Origin: a virus
Direction: 5' to 3' (one strand)
IMG/VR virus record: IMGVR_UViG_3300044491_003507
Location: 1-27,533 of that record
DNA: 27,533 nucleotides
Part shown: piece by piece, positions 5,974 to 24,810 of the stretch
How the letters are laid out: every line of letters begins with the position of its first letter
Numbering within the stretch: position 1 is the first letter of the stretch
Position numbers and translations under genes: made by a program
The notes under the pieces: generated by a model
What the model saw: the letters and a program-made list of their open reading frames with translations, nothing else
What the model was told of the DNA's origin: nothing
The model's database searches: none

Positions 5974-6162
5974 ATGTGGGCCTTACTCTTACCCGTTGCT
6001 AAAAATGTAGTCATGAAGGCCGTTGAATCTGACCAGGTAAAGTACCTTGTGGTTGAAATCCTCAAGCGTATTGTCGCCAAAACAGACAACGACCTCGATG
6101 ATCTTGTTGTTGCTCAGTTAGAAACTGCGCTATTCCCTAAGGAGTCTGCTGAAGCTGAATAG
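5974..6162 (+). CDS. Small hypothetical phage protein (62 aa)
   Basis: MWALLLPVAKNVVMKAVESD onward: a hydrophobic N-terminal segment, then an amphipathic helix and an acidic tail (LFPKESAEAE). The layout resembles small proteins I associate with marine phages that start M(W/F)xLLxPxAK, usually hypothetical. Its last 26 bases overlap the 3' end of thyX on the other strand. No ribosome-binding site is seen; a TATAAT box sits one base before the ATG, which is odd. Confidence 0.6.
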   Translation: MWALLLPVAKNVVMKAVESDQVKYLVVEILKRIVAKTDNDLDDLVVAQLETALFPKESAEAE

Positions 6163-6799
6163 TGGGATTACCCCACATAGCCTTACAAACATTGGGTAAT
6201 TGCTCGGCGAGGATATTCTTTGCCCCTAATGCAATATCCATATGTTCTTTTTGTGTACCATTAGCCGACCGGAGATCAACATAATGAAGCCAAGAACGTA
6301 CAGTGCCAGTCATGTAAAGCCTAGAAGGCGTGGCAATTGGCAAGAAAAACCTAGCGCATTCCTTAGCGACTCCTTTATCCAACATTTTGTTATAAAGTTT
6401 CTTAGATTGTTCGATCAAGACTGAGGCCTCTTCATACAATTCCGCCTTAACTTCAAAAGACAAATCGTTTGTGGAGTTCTGTCGGTTCTTAGTGTCTTGA
6501 CGGCGAAGTTCTGGGAGTTCAATACTAGTTAGTGCGCCAACATCAGCGTAGCGTTGCGAGAACTCTTGGAAAGAAAACGAGCGATGACGAAGGATCTGGG
6601 CGGCAATACCACGGTTGGTATTGATCTCTAAGCACATGCTAGCCATCTCAAATGGGCTCCAGTGGCGATGTTTGATGAGATAACGGATTAACTTATCTGC
6701 AGTATCGTAGTTACCTTGGTTTGATGGGTTGGACACACGCGCCATGTCCGAGATAAGATGCTCTGCATCTGGTGTAACCCATACAAGTTTCACAGACAT
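6137..6799 (-). CDS. thyX: FAD-dependent thymidylate synthase ThyX
   Basis: Makes dTMP from dUMP using methylene-tetrahydrofolate, NADPH and FAD, independently of ThyA. The family signature RHRxxSxxExSxRY is complete at residues 71-84 (RHRSFSFQEFSQRY). It is preceded by the usual HWSPFE stretch (46-51) and followed by an RSWLHYVDLR segment corresponding to the conserved C-terminal substrate-binding helix. The 220-residue length is normal for the family. ThyX is common in cyanophages and would supply thymidine for phage DNA synthesis. The ATG at 6799 has no Shine-Dalgarno sequence; a hairpin followed by TTTT lies directly before it. The 3' end overlaps the plus-strand gene at 5974-6162 by 26 bases. 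Confidence 0.95.
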   Translation of the reverse strand: MSVKLVWVTPDAEHLISDMARVSNPSNQGNYDTADKLIRYLIKHRHWSPFEMASMCLEINTNRGIAAQILRHRSFSFQEFSQRYADVGALTSIELPELRRQDTKNRQNSTNDLSFEVKAELYEEASVLIEQSKKLYNKMLDKGVAKECARFFLPIATPSRLYMTGTVRSWLHYVDLRSANGTQKEHMDIALGAKNILAEQLPNVCKAMWGNPTIQLQQTP

Positions 6800-7077: not shown

Positions 7078-8223
7078 CTACTTTTCGATCCTAACCACAT
7101 CGCCATATTTGATATTTTCTTCTTTAACTCCTCCGGGTGAGATACACCAGAGTAGCGGAGTCTCCGGTTCTTCCCAAGTCATCGGAGCGAATCCATCTGT
7201 GTAGATAATTCCCACCGTGTTTGTATAAGAGTTCTCTGACGAGATTTTATTTAGTTCTTTCATGATGGGAACAAAACTTGTACCTCCTAAGCCAACAGGT
7301 TTTGGCACACCATCTAAATCTTCAATGTTACCCTGAGGGTACAGTTCAGTATCGAAGTAATACAAATACCCCGTAGTTCCTTTTGTTGAGTTAATGGCAA
7401 AAAATAACTCGGAGAGGAAGTTTTGTAAAAGCTCCTCGTCTACAGATCCTGAGGTATCTACAAATGCTGCTACATGAACCTTATTACCTCCCACGTCATC
7501 TATGTACATACCATCATGGATAAACCTACGATCATACCCTTCAAAGTCTGCTCGGGATGCCGTAACGTACTTATATAGAGCGTCTTTCCAGTTAATACTA
7601 GGATCAAGTAGTTCTTTGAAAACTCTGGCCATACCGGATCCTTTTACCCCAGCCTGCCTCATTTTAGCCACAGTTTTGGCTTTATTGATAATATCTTCCC
7701 ACTTAGATTTATTGCTTACTTTACTCTCCTTATCGCTAGTACTCCCACCCTTCTTTTTTAAGCATTCATTTACCGCTCCGTCACCATACTTCTCAGAGAT
7801 GTGGTTTTTGTTTTCTTTCTGCTTCTCTTTAATAATAGAGTATATTTCTCTTACGCTTAAATGTTTTAAGTCATCGTCATATATAGCTTCTTCTGGCAAA
7901 GAAATTTTATTATCTTTGATAATTCCATTAACGACTATATCAGCCGCAATATTTGCTAGCATTAAATCGGTTAGATCTTTTGTTCTGTCGATGTGGCAAA
8001 GAGCCATATGAAGAGTCTCATGTAGAAGTACTCCGTTGAAGTTATCTTCTGTTTGCGAGCACATCCACTCCTCGTTAATGAGTAGAGTAGAGCCATCAGT
8101 GGCAGCTGTTTCAATAGAGTCTGTAATCTCATATTCCGTGTGAAGTAAAATCGTACCAAAAAACGGAGACTTTTTAAGTAACTTAACCCTAGATTTGATA
8201 AACTTTTCTTCAAACTTACTCAC
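7078..8223 (-). CDS. VWA-domain putative metallopeptidase (DUF2201-like)
   Basis: Two-part protein of 381 residues. The N-terminal half holds a zinc-protease-type motif HETLHMALCH (68-77; HExxH plus a third His). The C-terminal half is a von Willebrand A fold with the metal-binding DxSxS motif VDTSGSVDEE (D256, S258, S260), a GGTSF loop (313-317) and TDG (342-344). This matches proteins annotated as DUF2201 with a VWA-like C-terminus, which pair with MoxR ATPases. The start is GTG 8223, overlapping the MoxR stop as GTGA, with AGGAG eight bases upstream. Tight coupling to MoxR supports a joint chaperone or protease complex; the substrate is unknown. Confidence 0.85.
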   Translation of the reverse strand: MSKFEEKFIKSRVKLLKKSPFFGTILLHTEYEITDSIETAATDGSTLLINEEWMCSQTEDNFNGVLLHETLHMALCHIDRTKDLTDLMLANIAADIVVNGIIKDNKISLPEEAIYDDDLKHLSVREIYSIIKEKQKENKNHISEKYGDGAVNECLKKKGGSTSDKESKVSNKSKWEDIINKAKTVAKMRQAGVKGSGMARVFKELLDPSINWKDALYKYVTASRADFEGYDRRFIHDGMYIDDVGGNKVHVAAFVDTSGSVDEELLQNFLSELFFAINSTKGTTGYLYYFDTELYPQGNIEDLDGVPKPVGLGGTSFVPIMKELNKISSENSYTNTVGIIYTDGFAPMTWEEPETPLLWCISPGGVKEENIKYGDVVRIEK

Positions 8224-9215
8224 TTAAGTAACTCCTGGTACTTGGCCATAAATGTTTTTGCTTCTTGATCTTTTGCAACTAACTTAACAAAAGCCCCTTG
8301 AAGGTTTTTCACCTTAAGAGCAATCATTGCGTCACTCATGTATAACCCGATATAATCTTCCGTGGTTCCTTTCATTAACCATTTAAGCCCGCGATAAACA
8401 TTATCGGCGCTTTTAGCGCGGTTAATAAGAGCACCGCACACCGCGTACATCAATGATGGTTCATGAGGCACAGGTACGTCTCCACCTTTAAAAATAAGGT
8501 CTACGTCCGGCAGCTCTGTATAAATAGTTTGGTAGGCATAAAACTCAGAAGCAGCACCTAAGCCAACAGCAGATTCGATGCTAAGATCTACGCTGAGAAG
8601 AGTATCAGCAAACTCCCATGACCTTGGTGAAGGCCAGGCTGGCTGATTCTTCTCAAAGTTATACAGAAGTTGAGGCCTAAAATTCAAGAATGCCAAGATC
8701 TTCTCATCTATCTCTTGAGCAATAGCATATTCTTTCCAAGAGTCAAGGCTAGTGTCGATATGAAAGTGGATGAATCGATTTGCTACAGGAGCCGGCATCT
8801 GAGAGATTGCTGCTCGGTCTTCTGTACGATTACCCGCCGCGATAATAAACCAACCCTCGGGTACTTTATAATCGCCTACTTGGCGATCTAGGATGAGTTG
8901 TTGAGCGATACCCATGACACTCGGTGAGGCCATGTTCAGTTCGTCAAGGAACAGTATACCCTCACCATCGCTGGGTAAGAAGGACGGTGGGGCAAAATAT
9001 GCCTTACCGTCTTTAGTATATGGCAGCCCTCGGATATCTGTAGGAGCTAGCTGAGAGATTCTCAGATCAATGAGCTTAAGGTCTTGCTCTTTAGCAACTT
9101 GTTTTACTGCGGAAGACTTACCTATACCGGGAGCACCCCAGATAAAAACAGAATGCTTGACCTGGTTCTCGATCAGAGTACTGAGAGATTTAGTAAGACT
9201 ACTGATCGTGCTCAT
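8220..9215 (-). CDS. MoxR-family AAA+ ATPase
   Basis: Single AAA+ domain of 331 residues. Walker A GAPGIGKS (27-34), Walker B LFLDEL (88-93), sensor-1 region AAGNR (126-130) and an ANRF arginine-finger region (145-148) are all present. MoxR proteins work with VWA-domain partners to remodel or mature protein complexes, and the VWA gene follows with a four-base overlap. GGGAG precedes ATG 9215. A promoter (TTTACA, 17 bases, TAGAAT) lies upstream. MoxR genes have been noted in cyanophages; the target here is not known. Confidence 0.9.
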   Translation of the reverse strand: MSTISSLTKSLSTLIENQVKHSVFIWGAPGIGKSSAVKQVAKEQDLKLIDLRISQLAPTDIRGLPYTKDGKAYFAPPSFLPSDGEGILFLDELNMASPSVMGIAQQLILDRQVGDYKVPEGWFIIAAGNRTEDRAAISQMPAPVANRFIHFHIDTSLDSWKEYAIAQEIDEKILAFLNFRPQLLYNFEKNQPAWPSPRSWEFADTLLSVDLSIESAVGLGAASEFYAYQTIYTELPDVDLIFKGGDVPVPHEPSLMYAVCGALINRAKSADNVYRGLKWLMKGTTEDYIGLYMSDAMIALKVKNLQGAFVKLVAKDQEAKTFMAKYQELLK

Positions 9216-9842: not shown

Positions 9843-10334
9843 ATGAAAAAGCAGATAATTCTTAGTTTTGCAATGTTGGGATTAGCTAGCCCTGCCTTTG
9901 CGGATATTACACATAAAATGAGTTCTTCAATTCAGCTAACTGTAGACGGAGCAGGCTCTGTCGCAAATAGAATTGGCTCTACATACTCTATCACTGGAAA
10001 CAATATCACCCTAGACACTGCCGGTGGTTTAGGTTCATTAACTCCTGGATCAGGAGTTGGTTACACAGCAGCAGATTACAGCATAACAACGGCAGGCGAC
10101 GCTTTCTCTCTATCAGAAACTTTTATAGAGGGAGATGCAACACCTACAGCAACTTCTGTTTCAACGGGGATTGTTAGTTCGTTACCCATGTTAGGTAGCA
10201 CAACTACAACATCCGGCGGAGTTGCAGGATCTCTTGCAGGAACATTGGCCACTGACGGCGCAATGACTTTAACTGCTGGAGGAGCTGGGACATCAGCAAT
10301 TGGACAGTTTATCACAGAACTTACAATCGACTGA
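9843..10334 (+). CDS. Exported cyanophage-type protein 1 (163 aa)
   Basis: A Sec signal peptide (MKKQIILSFAMLGLASPAFA, cleavage after residue 20) leads into ADITHKMSSSIQLTVDGAGS, then a Gly/Thr/Ser-rich body with little charge. The ADITHK...SIQLTVD start belongs to a family I associate with marine cyanophages, of unknown function. The mature region is low-complexity and probably beta-rich. It shares a YSITGNNI segment with YTITGTNI of the next gene, suggesting old duplication. It is first in a plus-strand trio of exported proteins between divergent minus-strand blocks. No clear Shine-Dalgarno sequence. Confidence 0.8.
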   Translation: MKKQIILSFAMLGLASPAFADITHKMSSSIQLTVDGAGSVANRIGSTYSITGNNITLDTAGGLGSLTPGSGVGYTAADYSITTAGDAFSLSETFIEGDATPTATSVSTGIVSSLPMLGSTTTTSGGVAGSLAGTLATDGAMTLTAGGAGTSAIGQFITELTID

Positions 10335-10336
10335 TC

Positions 10337-10789
10337 ATGAGTAAAATGCACGAGGCTATAGGATTAGGACTGGTTCTAGGAGCCATTCATAGTCTTATGT
10401 CTCCGGCCAATGCGGTACCCGTTGTTCCTAATTTCTCTCAAGGTAGTATGACAAGCCACACAGAAACTACCTCTAAAATAACAGAGACAATTAACTCTAT
10501 TGATTATAATACCGGCTACACTTATACAATAACCGGTACTAATATAGAAAACTCTGGCGGGAGTATGGCTCCTCCTGCTGATAAAATCACTGGCAACGCA
10601 AACGGAATCTCAGCAACATGGACGGGACTAAATCTTTCTCAAAAGCCAAATTGGCAGCAAAAAAACCCAGGACAAGCTTTTCAATTCACAGAATCTTACC
10701 TTGGTCCAGGATTACAAAATCAGACGATAATCCAAAGAACAACAGAAATACAAAGCATAACCGATACCACAAGTATATTTACCCAATAA
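10337..10789 (+). CDS. Exported cyanophage-type protein 2 (150 aa)
   Basis: A hydrophobic segment IGLGLVLGAIHSLMSPANA ends in AxA near residue 26, typical of a signal peptide. The mature part is Thr/Ser/Asn-rich with a YTITGTNI segment like the preceding protein and an AFQFTESYLGPG stretch that parallels AFSLSETFIEGD in protein 1. The two are therefore probably distant paralogs. It starts two bases after the previous stop and ends at TAA 10787-10789, which overlaps the apparent start of the third protein. Function unknown; a periplasmic or virion-surface role is inference. Confidence 0.75.
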   Translation: MSKMHEAIGLGLVLGAIHSLMSPANAVPVVPNFSQGSMTSHTETTSKITETINSIDYNTGYTYTITGTNIENSGGSMAPPADKITGNANGISATWTGLNLSQKPNWQQKNPGQAFQFTESYLGPGLQNQTIIQRTTEIQSITDTTSIFTQ

Positions 10790-11496
10790 AAACGTCATGT
10801 CTACTTGCTCTAAGTGTAATTGTAATTGTCCCTGCAAATGCAGAGACTGTGGGAGGTGTGAGTGCAACCGCGGCTCCAGTAGCTAACAGTTCAGGTTCAG
10901 TTACTAATCAGGCAATTCAAGTTTTACAAGGCCCGTACATTACAAATGCCTATGGCGGAGGTATTCAATGCCAAGGGCCTACAATGAACTTTACTCCTTA
11001 TGTAACTGGGGCAGTTGCTACACAGTCACCATTCCAGGACTATTACAACGACCCGGTGTATGATGTCACTGATAACTTCGGAGCCTTTGATGAAGATGGC
11101 CAGCCAATTGGCGATGGGGTTCTAGATAACCCAGGTAGTGTATTATTTACAAAGAAAACGAGAACAGGTCAGAAAGATAATTATAACCTCGGAGTAGGGT
11201 TCTCTGTTACTTGGTCAAAGCCAATGGACGCAAAGCTTCAAGACCTATGTAAAGACGCAGCCCGGACTCAAGTGGAGCTTCAGCAACAGATAATTTCCAG
11301 TAAAAGACTAGAGTTTGAGCTGGCAAGGTTGAGGAATTGTGGCAACTTAGCTAAAGATGGTATACAATTTCATCCTAGATCTCCGTACTATAAGATTTGT
11401 GCGGATGTTTTAATCAATAATCCCCCGGGTCACGAGCACCCTCATCGCCACGCTATATCTACAAACGCTAAAGACTTAGGCGGGGCAATAGAATAG
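10786..11496 (+). CDS. Exported cyanophage-type protein 3, apparent ATA start
   Basis: From codon 10786 the frame reads [M]KTSCLLALSVIVIVPANA-ET, a textbook signal peptide with cleavage after residue 19. The start codon in the sequence is ATA, overlapping the previous stop as ATAA. An A in place of G (ATGA) would give the usual phage start/stop overlap. The ATG at 10618 in the same frame would add 56 residues that lie wholly inside the neighbouring gene and look like shadow translation. The mature part is 217 residues: a Gly/Thr-rich half, then a helical stretch (ARTQVELQQQIISSKRLEFE) and a Cys/His-rich end. It ends exactly where the minus-strand gene at 11497 ends. Confidence 0.65.
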   Translation: MKTSCLLALSVIVIVPANAETVGGVSATAAPVANSSGSVTNQAIQVLQGPYITNAYGGGIQCQGPTMNFTPYVTGAVATQSPFQDYYNDPVYDVTDNFGAFDEDGQPIGDGVLDNPGSVLFTKKTRTGQKDNYNLGVGFSVTWSKPMDAKLQDLCKDAARTQVELQQQIISSKRLEFELARLRNCGNLAKDGIQFHPRSPYYKICADVLINNPPGHEHPHRHAISTNAKDLGGAIE

Positions 11497-20612: not shown

Positions 20613-20655
20613 GTGATACCCCCCTATCACGGATTGTCACAATTATTTTGTGACA
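20613..20655. repeat. Two adjacent inverted repeats at the helicase stop codon
   Basis: First: GTGATA, six C, TATCAC (20613-20630). Second: TGTCACAA, TTATT, TTGTGACA (20635-20655), which spans the TAA stop of the helicase gene at 20643-20645. On the minus strand the first repeat is followed by CACTCTTTT. Together they could form a terminator or an operator for the primase gene. Confidence 0.65.
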
Positions 20656-22502
20656 GGGCCAACTTTTTTAGGGTCATAGTCTGGATCATATAGCCACTGA
20701 GAATCACAAACGGTCATCGAGTTGCAAATTGCTTCTGCTTCTTCAGCGGGAATTTGGCTAATAAGCGTGTCTGCAAGGGCATAGATCTTTTTACATTCTC
20801 CTTTTACAGACTCCCAAGTACGAACAACGTACGGCATTTTCTTACCCATGTTAAATCCATCGCGGAGGCGGAGTACATCTAGAACCATCTCTACGCTAAG
20901 AGCCACGTCTTTGCTGGCTTTAGATTCTTGAAGAGCCGCCCAGGCTTTATCTACAGAAGTAATAAGAACTTTACGTTGTGCCCAGTAAGGATGGCGAGAT
21001 GGACGATTATTATACTCCCAGTCTTGTTTCATTAAGCTGCGAAGGTTATCAGCACGTTTGTCAATCATCAAGAACCTAGTTGCTTCGTAGGCATCTTCAA
21101 AGCTATTTAGAGTTAGCTCAGGTAGCCAGGTTCCTTTAGCAGCACGTTTGCGAATAGCGTATGCCAAAAGCATAAACCTGAGGAAACTTTCCAGTGCAGC
21201 TTTGTGCATTTGAACACGCATGTAAGGAAGAAGTGCCTCAGAGTAAAAATGAATATCTTCTCCTTGCTCTCCTTTACAGTGCTCCATAAAAAAGTCGGCG
21301 CAATCGCGTAATAACAGGATGTACAGCGTTCTAGGCTCTACATTGTACTTTTTACACAACCACCGAATATGCGATGCAGGATGTACATCATGCCCCGCTT
21401 CTTCGGACATTTCTTCAAGTTCGTATAGTCGATAGGTGGCAATAGGAGCCAAGCGAGAGATTGCACCAGAGTCTAGATCGTAAGTAAGTTCAGGTTTCCA
21501 TTCGTTGCAATTTGCCAAGATAACAGTGTTTGCAACAACTTCAACAGCGTCTGTCCCTTTATTTTCAACTCTTTCTGTTCCTCCTGTAACGACCGACTTG
21601 AAGCTATGAGCTGTGAGCATAGACTTCAAACCTTCAGTGGTAAGATCATCGTTGTATGCCAAGTGAGATGTAATGATCTCTCCTTGATTGAAACGAGAAC
21701 CGAAGTCTCCCATGGCGGTAACCTCGTACCCTAGGTACTTCATAGCATCAAGAACTCCATTGAGGGTAATAGTTTTACCAACTCCAGGTTCTCCAATAAC
21801 AACCCCCGCTTTACGAAATCCGTGGTGGATTACTTCTGCAGAGCCAGGATGAACTGTTCCGCTCCTGCCAACAACCGCTCTACCAAGAATAAGTTTCATC
21901 ATCTTTGCCTCGTACTCAGGAAAGATTTTGACAATATCTTCAAACTTTAAGTCTTGGATTTCTTTTTCAAACCACTTTTTTTCTGGAAGGTACGCAAAAA
22001 TAGGGCTCGAGCTTGCGGGGGATTCTAAAGTACTACCAGGTTTGAAAGCGATTCCTTGCTCATATAACCCACCACCGATCTTCTTATGATAACGAGCTTT
22101 AAGGGTTTGGAGCCCCAGCACGTGATCAACAATATCTGATGCTCTTCCTTGACGATAGATAACCAACGGCAAAGCAAATTCTGCTTCTTCTGCGGTTAGT
22201 CCGTCTCCATCTTGACCAGACGCGATGCCAAGGAGCGTTTTCTGGATGCCTTGAAGATAATCTTCATCGGCTGGCATAGCTGTAGAAAATCCGTTAGGAA
22301 ACTTAATTCCTTTGATAGGAGTAGGATCCCCCCAGGTGTACAGACTATGAAAGCTTTGAAGTTTAGCGCTGTAATCAAAACGCAAAATACATCCTTTCTT
22401 CTGCAACCAAGGAGTCAGGTTGTTGTACATCTCTGCAGGAGTACTTGGAGTCAGAGTTGCAAACGCAGAACCATGTTCTTTCTCTGGCTTCTTTCTTGGC
22501 AT
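20643..22502 (-). CDS. SF3-type replicative helicase (619 aa)
   Basis: Unwinds the template for replication. Walker A GEPGVGKT (237-244), a Walker B-like LAYNDDL (281-287), a sensor/motif C region TVILANCNEW (326-335) and an arginine-finger candidate AISRL (348-351) appear in the order and spacing of superfamily 3 (D5-like) helicases. The N-terminal 200 residues lack a recognisable primase motif, consistent with the separate primase gene downstream. The C-terminal 250 residues are helical and unassigned. Expression signals are strong: TTGACA-N18-TATAAT upstream and GGAG seven bases before ATG 22502. Assignment to SF3 is by motif pattern; another AAA+ class is possible. Confidence 0.7.
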   Translation of the reverse strand: MPRKKPEKEHGSAFATLTPSTPAEMYNNLTPWLQKKGCILRFDYSAKLQSFHSLYTWGDPTPIKGIKFPNGFSTAMPADEDYLQGIQKTLLGIASGQDGDGLTAEEAEFALPLVIYRQGRASDIVDHVLGLQTLKARYHKKIGGGLYEQGIAFKPGSTLESPASSSPIFAYLPEKKWFEKEIQDLKFEDIVKIFPEYEAKMMKLILGRAVVGRSGTVHPGSAEVIHHGFRKAGVVIGEPGVGKTITLNGVLDAMKYLGYEVTAMGDFGSRFNQGEIITSHLAYNDDLTTEGLKSMLTAHSFKSVVTGGTERVENKGTDAVEVVANTVILANCNEWKPELTYDLDSGAISRLAPIATYRLYELEEMSEEAGHDVHPASHIRWLCKKYNVEPRTLYILLLRDCADFFMEHCKGEQGEDIHFYSEALLPYMRVQMHKAALESFLRFMLLAYAIRKRAAKGTWLPELTLNSFEDAYEATRFLMIDKRADNLRSLMKQDWEYNNRPSRHPYWAQRKVLITSVDKAWAALQESKASKDVALSVEMVLDVLRLRDGFNMGKKMPYVVRTWESVKGECKKIYALADTLISQIPAEEAEAICNSMTVCDSQWLYDPDYDPKKVGPVTK

Positions 22503-22585: not shown

Positions 22586-22731
22586 TTGTTGATAAAAACT
22601 CTGTCAGCTGGGTATTGAGCTCTTACTAACTCTTCTAGGAATCTGCGGTCGGCAGAGTCTGAAGTCAAAGAGAAGTTGTGCGATCGACCGCGGGAGTCTG
22701 TGTATCTCCCACTAACGTTAAACTGGGTCAT
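22573..22731 (-). CDS. Hypothetical small phage protein (52 aa)
   Basis: A 52-residue frame: MTQFNVSGRYTDSRGRSHNF, then a helix (SADRRFLEELVRAQYP) and a closing strand VFINKVSQ. The strand-helix-strand pattern resembles other tiny phage proteins, including the 51-residue one at 1800-1955. Its start overlaps the end of the nuclease gene by 14 bases. Its last codons are formed by the 20-bp repeat also found after the genes at 439 and 747. Function unknown. Confidence 0.6.
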   Translation of the reverse strand: MTQFNVSGRYTDSRGRSHNFSLTSDSADRRFLEELVRAQYPADRVFINKVSQ

Positions 22732-23971
22732 ATGCAGCAAACGACTTGAGTTTTTCTTTTATGTCATCTCGAATAGACTTGTAGGCTTGTATTGCCTGCC
22801 TCACCGCTTTCTTGCAAAGCTTATCTTCTTTGCAGTCTTTAAGGTTCTGCTCCTCGTACTTAATCTTCTGCTTAGTGTCCTCGTCCCTGACAACAAGGTC
22901 CTTGCACTTTTCAAAATCAGCCTTAGGAGCCTCCAGACAAAGCTTTTTATTCCTACCCTTGAGCTCGGGGTTTGCCTTTTCCTTGCGGATCCTCTTGGCT
23001 TTTTGAAAGAAAAGCTTTTTGTCGTGGTCGTTAGTCTTAGAGAGTTCAGGGAGGTACATCCCTTGAGATAAGAGGAATTTCTTAGCGGATTCAAAGTGAT
23101 CCGGCCTGTTTGATCTATCGTTAGACTTAAGTACTTTTGATAAGTAAGAGGTATCTTTTTCTGAAAAATACCAAGTATCATCCTCGTCATAAAGGTCAAA
23201 AAATCGTAGGGGTGAGCCAGGGAGCAAGCCGTCGCCGATGTCGCCGACCTCTACCTTAACAGTGTAGCATTCTTTTGCTTCTTTAATCTTTAGTCCTTCT
23301 TTACGAAGGTAGTAATCAACAACCTCGGCGTCTCCTCTCATACGAGGTAACCAAGGCCCTGTGTTACACCAAAGAATCTCTTCTTTATTTGAGACAATCC
23401 CTTGCCAGTCTCCGTCGAGAGTGCCGAGGAGGACTTGCCGCTTGCCGAGCTTAGAGCGTTTAGAAGAGTTACGCTTCATCCGTGCAATCTTGCCAGCAAT
23501 ATCATCGGCCTCGAAGTACTCCTTAGAGAAGTAATGAAAGCTTGAGTTCTTGCTGTCGATATACTCGTAGCCTACGTCTTGAACAAAGATAAAGTTATCT
23601 TTCTTAGGAGCACGACCTGCTTTATACTCTTGCATCTTGAGCTTATGAGCCTCGATATGACGCCAATAGCCCTTGCCATTTACCGAAGCATCATCACCCA
23701 CGGGTCCTTTATAATCGTCTGCGATTACCGCAACAAAGTCAAAAGGCTCGAGCATATCAGGTCCACGATTTAATCGGTAGGCCCACATAGCTTTGATGAT
23801 ATTCTTGAGTAGTTCTTTATCACCTTGTGCCACGTCTTCGGCTATCTCATAAAACCCATTGATGAAATGCGCAGCGACTTTAAAGTCTATAACATAGATG
23901 GGCAAGAGCGGTGCAGTTTTTACTTCAAAGATATCTTCTAGAAGGGTTTCTGTGTGATCATAATCTATCAA
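22718..23971 (-). CDS. FEN-like 5'-3' exonuclease / flap nuclease (417 aa)
   Basis: Predicted to remove RNA primers and flaps or to recycle DNA. Motifs of the 5'-nuclease family occur in order: YVIDFKVAAHF (26-36; D29), IADDYKGPVG (83-92), a basic EYKAGR (115-120), the metal-binding EADDIAGKIAR (154-164), TLDGDWQGIVS (184-194) and the GDIGDGLLPGSP turn (243-254) of the helix-hairpin-helix-like region. The C-terminal 120 residues are Lys-rich and unassigned. The start is TTG 23971: GGAGGT lies six bases before it, it overlaps the upstream stop as TTGA, and the first ATG would delete the first catalytic motif. It follows the ThyA-family gene directly. Confidence 0.8.
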   Translation of the reverse strand: MIDYDHTETLLEDIFEVKTAPLLPIYVIDFKVAAHFINGFYEIAEDVAQGDKELLKNIIKAMWAYRLNRGPDMLEPFDFVAVIADDYKGPVGDDASVNGKGYWRHIEAHKLKMQEYKAGRAPKKDNFIFVQDVGYEYIDSKNSSFHYFSKEYFEADDIAGKIARMKRNSSKRSKLGKRQVLLGTLDGDWQGIVSNKEEILWCNTGPWLPRMRGDAEVVDYYLRKEGLKIKEAKECYTVKVEVGDIGDGLLPGSPLRFFDLYDEDDTWYFSEKDTSYLSKVLKSNDRSNRPDHFESAKKFLLSQGMYLPELSKTNDHDKKLFFQKAKRIRKEKANPELKGRNKKLCLEAPKADFEKCKDLVVRDEDTKQKIKYEEQNLKDCKEDKLCKKAVRQAIQAYKSIRDDIKEKLKSFAAYDPV

Positions 23972-24810
23972 TTAGCCACCTCCATCTTAACGTTTTTATG
24001 GGAACTATATCCCACGAGTTCAAAGTCGGTTTCAGGATCTAGATCAAAGATAGGTTTGTCTGGGTTCATTTTAATCGAACATCTGCCCATAGGAAAGTTT
24101 TTAACGATCTCTGCAATTGCTTGTTCGTTTTGAGAGTAGATATGATTGTTAGCAGAAGCAAACATAACAAACCTAGGAGTTAGGGAAGCATCCTGTGCCA
24201 TCTTGGTGCAAAGGAGTCCGTATCTGAACATATCCAAAGGTACTCCAGTGGCCATGTCGTTAGATCGAGCGTTTACAAGAATGTCAAGGAAAGTCCCGTC
24301 GCTAGAAAAAGTGATGTTAGGATGACAAGGAGGACAGTGGAGAGACTGATAAGCAGGATTAAAAGTTTGTAGAACAAGTTGGCGATTTGTTGGGTTAGTT
24401 CTGAGTTGTTCCCAGATCCATCGGAGTTGGTCAAACGGACCGTCACGGAAGTTCTCCCACTCCATATGCTGTTCAGGACAAACTTGTGGCCAAGCTCTCC
24501 AGCTTCGTCCATAGGCTCCGGCAAGACGTCCTTCCGCGTCGGCGAGGAAATCCCAGAAATGTTTTGCAGGGCCAAGGTTGCTAACTTCATAGTTTCCGTT
24601 TACGTCCCACATGAACTCTCTGAAGAGGTTCTTTACGGGCATCTTACGTAGGGACAAGGCGGGGAATCCATCTCGCAGATCGATCTTGATTGTCTGTCCG
24701 AATACTTGCTTATAGCGCAGATTGTTGCGACCTACGACTTCAACCCCATCCTCAAGGATCTCTTTGGCGATCCTGATGTATTGTTGGTCAAAAGAAAGGG
24801 CCATAGACAT
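23968..24810 (-). CDS. ThyA-family dCMP (hydroxy)methylase candidate
   Basis: Clearly a thymidylate-synthase fold: R28, E65, W86, catalytic C162 in CPPCH, RSND (182-185), H223 and Y225 align with E. coli R21, E58, W80, C146, R166-D169, H207 and Y209 at the same spacing, and the tail ELVGYSSHKNVKMEV is TS-like. At the position of E. coli N177, which selects dUMP, there is D193 (VPLDMF). Asp here is the known determinant for dCMP (T4 gp42 D179). The second Arg of the phosphate pair is Gln (Q144). The product is therefore predicted to be hydroxymethyl- or methyl-dCMP rather than dTMP; which one cannot be told from sequence. A dUMP enzyme with changed specificity is possible but less likely given the separate ThyX. 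Confidence 0.8.
   Translation of the reverse strand: MSMALSFDQQYIRIAKEILEDGVEVVGRNNLRYKQVFGQTIKIDLRDGFPALSLRKMPVKNLFREFMWDVNGNYEVSNLGPAKHFWDFLADAEGRLAGAYGRSWRAWPQVCPEQHMEWENFRDGPFDQLRWIWEQLRTNPTNRQLVLQTFNPAYQSLHCPPCHPNITFSSDGTFLDILVNARSNDMATGVPLDMFRYGLLCTKMAQDASLTPRFVMFASANNHIYSQNEQAIAEIVKNFPMGRCSIKMNPDKPIFDLDPETDFELVGYSSHKNVKMEVAN

Follow-up and report, generated by a model that had tools for sequence, protein, structure and literature searches.

A probable dCMP 5-hydroxymethylase outside the T4 gp42 lineage in an S-TIM5-like marine cyanophage

The DNA analysed here is a 27.5 kb linear fragment from an IMG/VR virus record, hereafter called the window in its full length of 27,533 nucleotides; it derives from a marine cyanophage of the S-TIM5-like type (Aurunvirus). 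Among named phages, those nearest to it are the Synechococcus phages S-TIM5, S-TIM54, S-TIM61, and S-TIM66 (Aurunvirus), whose counterparts are 93% identical to the thymidylate synthase-like (TS-like) protein and 91% identical to the primase of the window. The TS-like gene, whose S-TIM5 counterpart gp076 is annotated as 'ThyA' or thymidylate synthase, belongs to a replication cluster on the minus strand, and the features on which the argument turns are the following:

6137-6799, minus strand: ThyX (flavin-dependent thymidylate synthase; PF02511, 158.6 bits), an independent dTMP source
20643-22502, minus strand: DNA primase/helicase gene, part of this replication cluster; the S-TIM5 counterpart is 91% identical
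22718-23971, minus strand: flap/5'-3' exonuclease-like gene, 'flap endonuclease' or 'polymerase' in S-TIM5
23968-24810, minus strand: CDS of the ThyA-fold enzyme (ATG start, 280 aa), a predicted dCMP hydroxymethylase
24232-24234, minus strand: Asp193 codon (GAT), equivalent to E. coli N177 and T4 D179, the cytosine-selecting residue
24325-24327, minus strand: catalytic Cys162 codon, aligned with E. coli C146 and T4 C148
24334-24336, minus strand: Cys159 codon, equivalent to E. coli L143 and T4 D145

Four bases (TTGA) at the stop of the TS-like gene are shared with the exonuclease-like gene, which suggests that the two genes are probably read from one transcript. The ThyX gene named in a preliminary description of this DNA was confirmed at its position and strand by the profile match given above; its counterpart in S-TIM5 is gp053, and ThyX is common to most of the large relatives, including two contigs of the sister clade described below. 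Elsewhere in the window, the genes for a DUF2201 metallopeptidase/VWA protein (7078-8223, minus strand) and an AAA ATPase (8220-9215, minus strand) have four bases in common; the PHROG label of the former, 'HNH endonuclease', seems mistaken. The same pair occurs in S-TIM5, adjoining Hsp20. Positions 9843-11496 hold three plus-strand open reading frames amid minus-strand genes, two of them with signal-peptide-like starts.

The 280-aa protein matches PF00303 at 177.9 bits across the entire profile, and its frame is open, free of stops. In the alignment with E. coli ThyA, residues C162, R182, D185, H223, and Y225 correspond to the catalytic C146, R166, D169, H207, and Y209; the ThyA spacing attributed to them in the preliminary description is correct, with Arg exactly 20 residues after the Cys and His exactly 41 after that Arg. 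R143 and Q144 correspond to R126 and R127, and D193 corresponds to N177, as had been claimed; D193 is also aligned with D179 of T4 gp42, whereas the SPO1 dUMP hydroxymethylase retains Asn (N194) at this site. Q144 had been regarded as an oddity, a view that was dropped: Gln is usual at this position in T4-type sequences (8 of 9 surveyed homologs with Asp143 and Thr147) and is found in SPO1 gp29 as well, while Arg occupies it in every Asn177 ThyA examined. The window protein keeps His163 (E. coli H147), the folate contacts Arg28, Asp185, and Ala279, and a TS-like C-terminal tail in which VKMEVAN is aligned with E. coli IKAPVAI. An AlphaFold model built with 24 homologs (mean pLDDT 90.6) shows the TS fold, and its best structural matches in Foldseek are thymidylate synthases, with the dCMP complex of L. 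casei TS N229D (1njc) among the top ones; this match backs the predicted fold and says nothing on the product.

Asp193 is found without exception in S-TIM5 and in 20 of 20 distinct IMG/VR relatives (75-93% identity), which excludes neutral drift as well as a sequencing error confined to one record. It is scarcely credible that the protein is a decayed or structural relative devoid of catalysis, given that the catalytic residues are all kept across more than 20 relatives and that the frame is intact.

To place the protein, IMG/VR was scanned with DNA patterns, two of them for Asp177 and one for Asn177 (E. coli numbering here and below), and phage reference sequences were added; the Asn177 phage sequences phi3T ThyP3, Magritte, RHph_Y68, DatBoi, and phage G gp124 were included to broaden the ThyA sampling. 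In the tree of 78 proteins, from which the very divergent SPO1 gp29 was omitted, the window family and seven uncharacterised contig proteins form one clade (support 100/99). A 51-row clade (97/93) holds every sampled Asn177 ThyA, and the window clade lies outside it; placement relative to dUMP-specific ThyA had been set beforehand as a check on the preliminary description, which thus passes it. The window clade is also separate from the T4 gp42 group. The sister clade (IMG/VR contigs L073, L074, L081, L084, L088, L090, and L091) consists of Asp177 TS-like proteins, about 40% identical to the window protein where compared, that share with it the CPPCH motif, Leu83, His or Gln at 127, and a tail ending in Asn; at the position of T4 Ser94 they carry Ser, in contrast to Gly98 in the window protein.

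An ordinary dUMP-specific thymidylate synthase that supplements ThyX and carries a neutral N177D change would agree with the fold, the top structural matches, and the other catalytic residues, which are all TS-like. This reading is nonetheless very improbable: the position is occupied by an Asp that is invariant throughout the family, the clade stands apart from all Asn177 sequences, Gln144, Leu89, and Cys159 depart from ThyA, and DHFR was not found in S-TIM5 or four large relatives.

The survey yielded other Asp177 proteins as well. ThyA-like phage proteins in L111, L123, L127, L137, and other IMG/VR loci combine Asp177 with otherwise ThyA-type residues and interleave with Asn177 sequences in the tree; judged by sequence, they apparently represent repeated N-to-D switches and are candidate dCMP methylases. 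One contig encodes a T4 gp56-like dCTPase (L155:791-1225, 2e-14) near an Asp177 ThyA-like protein (L155:2078-2956), which suggests a further phage that modifies cytosine, its enzyme being otherwise of ThyA type. Two contigs bearing related TS-like genes also encode a DNA polymerase whose exonuclease domain is of the mitochondrial (gamma) type, PF18136 (L072:9320-12247 and L071:6222-9368).

Asp at position 177 is the established dCMP determinant, exemplified by D179 of T4 and by N-to-D mutants of TS. Among 433 metagenomic TS sequences, position 177 was among the two residues that best distinguished contigs with modified cytosine from unmodified ones, with Asp in the former, and a single N-to-D mutation turns TS into a dCMP methylase (PMC8670742). 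The preliminary description had deduced a dCMP-type substrate from this Asp, and both the tree placement and the T4-type DNA alpha-glucosyltransferase of the relatives (below) support it; on sequence grounds, the substrate is very probably dCMP. The CMP hydroxymethylase MilA is likewise a member of the TS superfamily with Asp at 177, and differs in the Lys133/Ala176 sites that set its preference for ribose over deoxyribose (PMC5175136). The window protein has Arg143 and Ser183 instead, which match the deoxynucleotide-preferring enzymes and thus predict a deoxy substrate (PMC5175136).

The residues around the active site set the window clade apart from both of the better-known groups. Arg127 and Leu143 are universal among the Asn177 ThyA proteins examined; Trp83 is found in most of them and His147 in nearly all, phi3T ThyP3 and phage G gp124 having Val there instead. 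In T4-type sequences, Asp177 goes together with Asp143, Thr147, and, as a rule, Gln127. A third combination marks the window clade: Asp177, Cys143, Leu83, Gln or His127, and His147, along with a TS-like tail. In T4 dCMP hydroxymethylase (dCH), the water that hydroxylates the substrate is activated by Asp145 and held in place by Ser94; the D145N mutant is dead, and S94A retains about 25% activity (PMC6400193). The authors of that study proposed Asp145 and Ser94 as a hydroxymethylase signature, formulated as Asp/Glu at the third position ahead of the catalytic Cys and Ser/Thr at the second ahead of the catalytic Tyr (PMC6400193). The window protein lacks both residues, with Cys159 three before Cys162 and Gly98 at the Ser94 position; having been tested against the T4 gp42 signature and found wanting, it is not counted as a member of the gp42 family. 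Its TS-like tail and its separate clade are further departures from T4-type dCH. In E. coli TS, Trp83 governs solvent access and is propped by Leu143, the T4 counterparts being Val85 and Asp145 (PMC6400193). This solvent-excluding pair is replaced in the window protein by Leu89 and Cys159, a change that could let water in by another route; a solved chain of E. coli TS L143C was not found in the PDB.

Compared protein by protein, the window enzyme shares with T4 gp42 the TS fold, the catalytic Cys, Glu, Tyr, Arg, and His, Asp at 177, the RSND motif, the loss of W83, and the co-occurrence with a DNA alpha-glucosyltransferase; it differs in clade, in the replacements Asp145 to Cys159, Ser94 to Gly98, and Arg124 to Gln144, in the TS-like tail and the retained H147, and in that the partners gp1 and gp56 were not detected in S-TIM5. 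With E. coli and phage ThyA it has in common the full-length fold, catalytic residues, C-terminal tail, and H147, and it departs from them by N177D, R127Q, W83L, L143C, and its position outside the ThyA clade. The engineered dCMP methylase L. casei TS N229D has Asp at the equivalent site, as a single change in a dUMP-type enzyme, whereas the window protein has changes at gate positions 83 and 143 as well. The SPO1 dUMP hydroxymethylase gp29 resembles it in Gln for R127, the RSND motif, and a non-Trp residue at 83, yet this protein is very divergent, with Asn194 at the 177 position and Asp159 three before the Cys.

The genomic context bears on the product as well. The preliminary description had proposed a search for a glucosyltransferase, and the search was fruitful: S-TIM5 gp011, already named a DNA alpha-glucosyltransferase in the GenBank record, matches the Pfam family of the T4 DNA alpha-glucosyltransferase (AGT, PF11440) at 2.2e-9, and its only significant matches among PDB sequences are T4 AGT chains (2.3e-14). 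Its AlphaFold model (mean pLDDT 47.9) was set aside. Among 50,697 phage records searched, the T4-type alpha-glucosyltransferase family occurs in 5 of 5 S-TIM5-like records; elsewhere, the matches listed come from T-even relatives and from Bacillus phage G. The gene adjoins topoisomerase II in S-TIM5 and in both of the IMG/VR relatives that reach this region. Its absence from several large relatives was considered as counter-evidence and rejected; relatives without it also lack its topoisomerase neighbor, and these contigs do not reach the region. In 18 sister-clade contigs, all of them fragments, no alpha-glucosyltransferase was found. The window's own virus presumably has the gene, which lies outside the window and is known from relatives. 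A DNA glucosyltransferase is a common, not universal, companion of T4-type dCH, and by way of the S-TIM5 relatives it accompanies the window enzyme as well. DNA alpha-glucosyltransferase requires a hydroxyl on the base, a requirement that argues for hydroxymethylation. Bacillus phage G (JN638751.1; hits H135 and H121) has two alpha-glucosyltransferase-like places; its thymidylate synthase gp124 keeps Asn177, and the record contains a second TS-like place.

The folate economy offers an indirect argument in the same direction. Thymidylate synthase uses tetrahydrofolate (THF) as reductant and leaves dihydrofolate (DHF), whereas dCH gives THF back (PMC6400193). DHFR (PF00186) was found neither in S-TIM5 and four large relatives nor in any of six Synechococcus/Cyanobium (picocyanobacterial) genomes that served as host proxies, and it was detected in nine control genomes, including S. 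elongatus. The same six genomes contain ThyX and yielded no ThyA. Comparative genomics has led to the same view of Prochlorococcus, which has no recognisable DHFR yet must possess an activity that reduces DHF (PMC1971073). Since methylation yields DHF and the phages and host proxies have no recognised DHFR, methylation is disfavored and hydroxymethylation favored; an enzyme producing much DHF would suit this setting poorly, an objection that does not apply to a hydroxymethylase.

These observations bear on the most serious alternative, a dCMP methylase of the kind reported from phage Xp12, which would make 5-methyl-dCMP for 5mC DNA and leave the glucosyltransferase to act elsewhere or by another route. 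Such an enzyme would be in keeping with the TS-like tail, the retained folate contacts Arg28, Asp185, and Ala279, the missing T4 hydroxylation signature, and the dCMP methylase activity of single N-to-D mutants of TS (PMC8670742). We consider it unlikely, since the alpha-glucosyltransferase of every complete relative requires a hydroxyl, the reaction makes DHF that no recognised DHFR of phage or host proxies would recycle, and water-excluding W83 and L143 are both replaced. A Tet/JBP route from 5mC to hmC was also considered and rejected, as no such dioxygenase (PF12851) was found in S-TIM5 or four large relatives. The preliminary description had noted the TS-like tail and a possible lean towards full methylation; the tail is indeed there, and its lean is outweighed by the alpha-glucosyltransferase and the lack of DHFR. 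Reportedly, to go by the title of a paper on phage Xp12, 5-methyl-dCMP can lead to thymidylate, and S-TIM5 encodes a dCMP deaminase that might convert 5-methyl-dCMP to dTMP, a thymidylate detour instead of a DNA modification. The chance of this is slight, as ThyX is already there, the detour still produces DHF, and it leaves the alpha-glucosyltransferase unexplained.

The preliminary description had also suggested looking for a modified-dNMP kinase and a dCTPase, and here the outcome was negative: phmmer found no homologs of T4 gp1 (dNMP kinase) or gp56 (dCTPase) in S-TIM5, and 92 hypothetical proteins scanned against Pfam gave no match to a dCTPase, MazG, or dNMP kinase. The synthesis of hm-dCTP and the removal of dCTP are thus unexplained, and the replacement of cytosine may be partial. 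In a homologous contig, a thymidylate-kinase-like gene (L061:1694-2374, phrog_761) adjoins the TS-like gene (L061:822-1745) and is a candidate modified-dNMP kinase. A C5-cytosine methyltransferase homolog (PF00145; L021:37304-38521, S-TIM5 gp080), with PPC and ENA motifs recognisable by eye and matches in L002, L003, and L005-L018, lies a few kb upstream of the TS-like gene in relatives with enough flank, just past the end of the window; on fully C5-substituted DNA, there would be little left for it to methylate.

Taken together, what the preliminary description observed is confirmed and what it deduced is largely borne out: the enzyme resembles the dCMP-modifying TS family and is most likely a hydroxymethylase outside the T4 gp42 family. 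Our preferred reading, which we hold with fair though incomplete confidence, is a dCMP 5-hydroxymethylase of a lineage apart from T4 gp42 that feeds the formation of glucosyl-hmC DNA; a hydroxymethyl product is, with similar and moderate assurance, the probable one. The basis lies in the sequences, namely fold, residues, conservation, separate clade, co-occurrence with alpha-glucosyltransferase and ThyX, and the lack of a recognisable DHFR. Against the preferred hydroxymethylase stand the missing T4 Asp145/Ser94 signature, the presence of the TS-like tail and His163, the C5-cytosine methyltransferase kept nearby, the failure to find gp1 and gp56 homologs, and the position of the alpha-glucosyltransferase outside the window. 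In the proposed mechanism, Cys162 would attack C6 of dCMP, Asp193 would hold and protonate the cytosine ring, and methylene-THF would donate the one-carbon unit to C5; the exocyclic methylene would then be quenched by water, not hydride, giving hm-dCMP and THF. Putative kinases would convert hm-dCMP to hm-dCTP for incorporation into phage DNA, the T4-type DNA alpha-glucosyltransferase of the phage would add glucose, and dTMP would be supplied by ThyX. The outcome would be virion DNA with (perhaps partial) glucosyl-hmC, presumably resistant to host restriction.

It is somewhat more probable than an even chance would have it that this enzyme represents a second route to cytosine hydroxymethylation, in which the TS tail is kept, Asp145 and Ser94 are missing, and a gate altered from W83 to Leu and from L143 to Cys admits water, with glucosyl-hmC DNA in a widespread marine cyanobacterial virus lineage. 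A 2010 survey of T4-related phages does not list gene 42 for marine cyanophages (PMC2993671), and the literature searched holds no report of hydroxymethylated (and glucosylated) cytosine in cyanophages. The case tests the published rule that separates hydroxymethylases from methylases, as the genome context points one way and the active-site signature another; S-TIM5 itself is an isolate in culture. S-TIM5-like viruses probably coat their cytosines with glucose, and if this is true, such T4-style DNA armour in marine phages would bear on restriction in marine Synechococcus and on DNA-chemistry biases in viromics.
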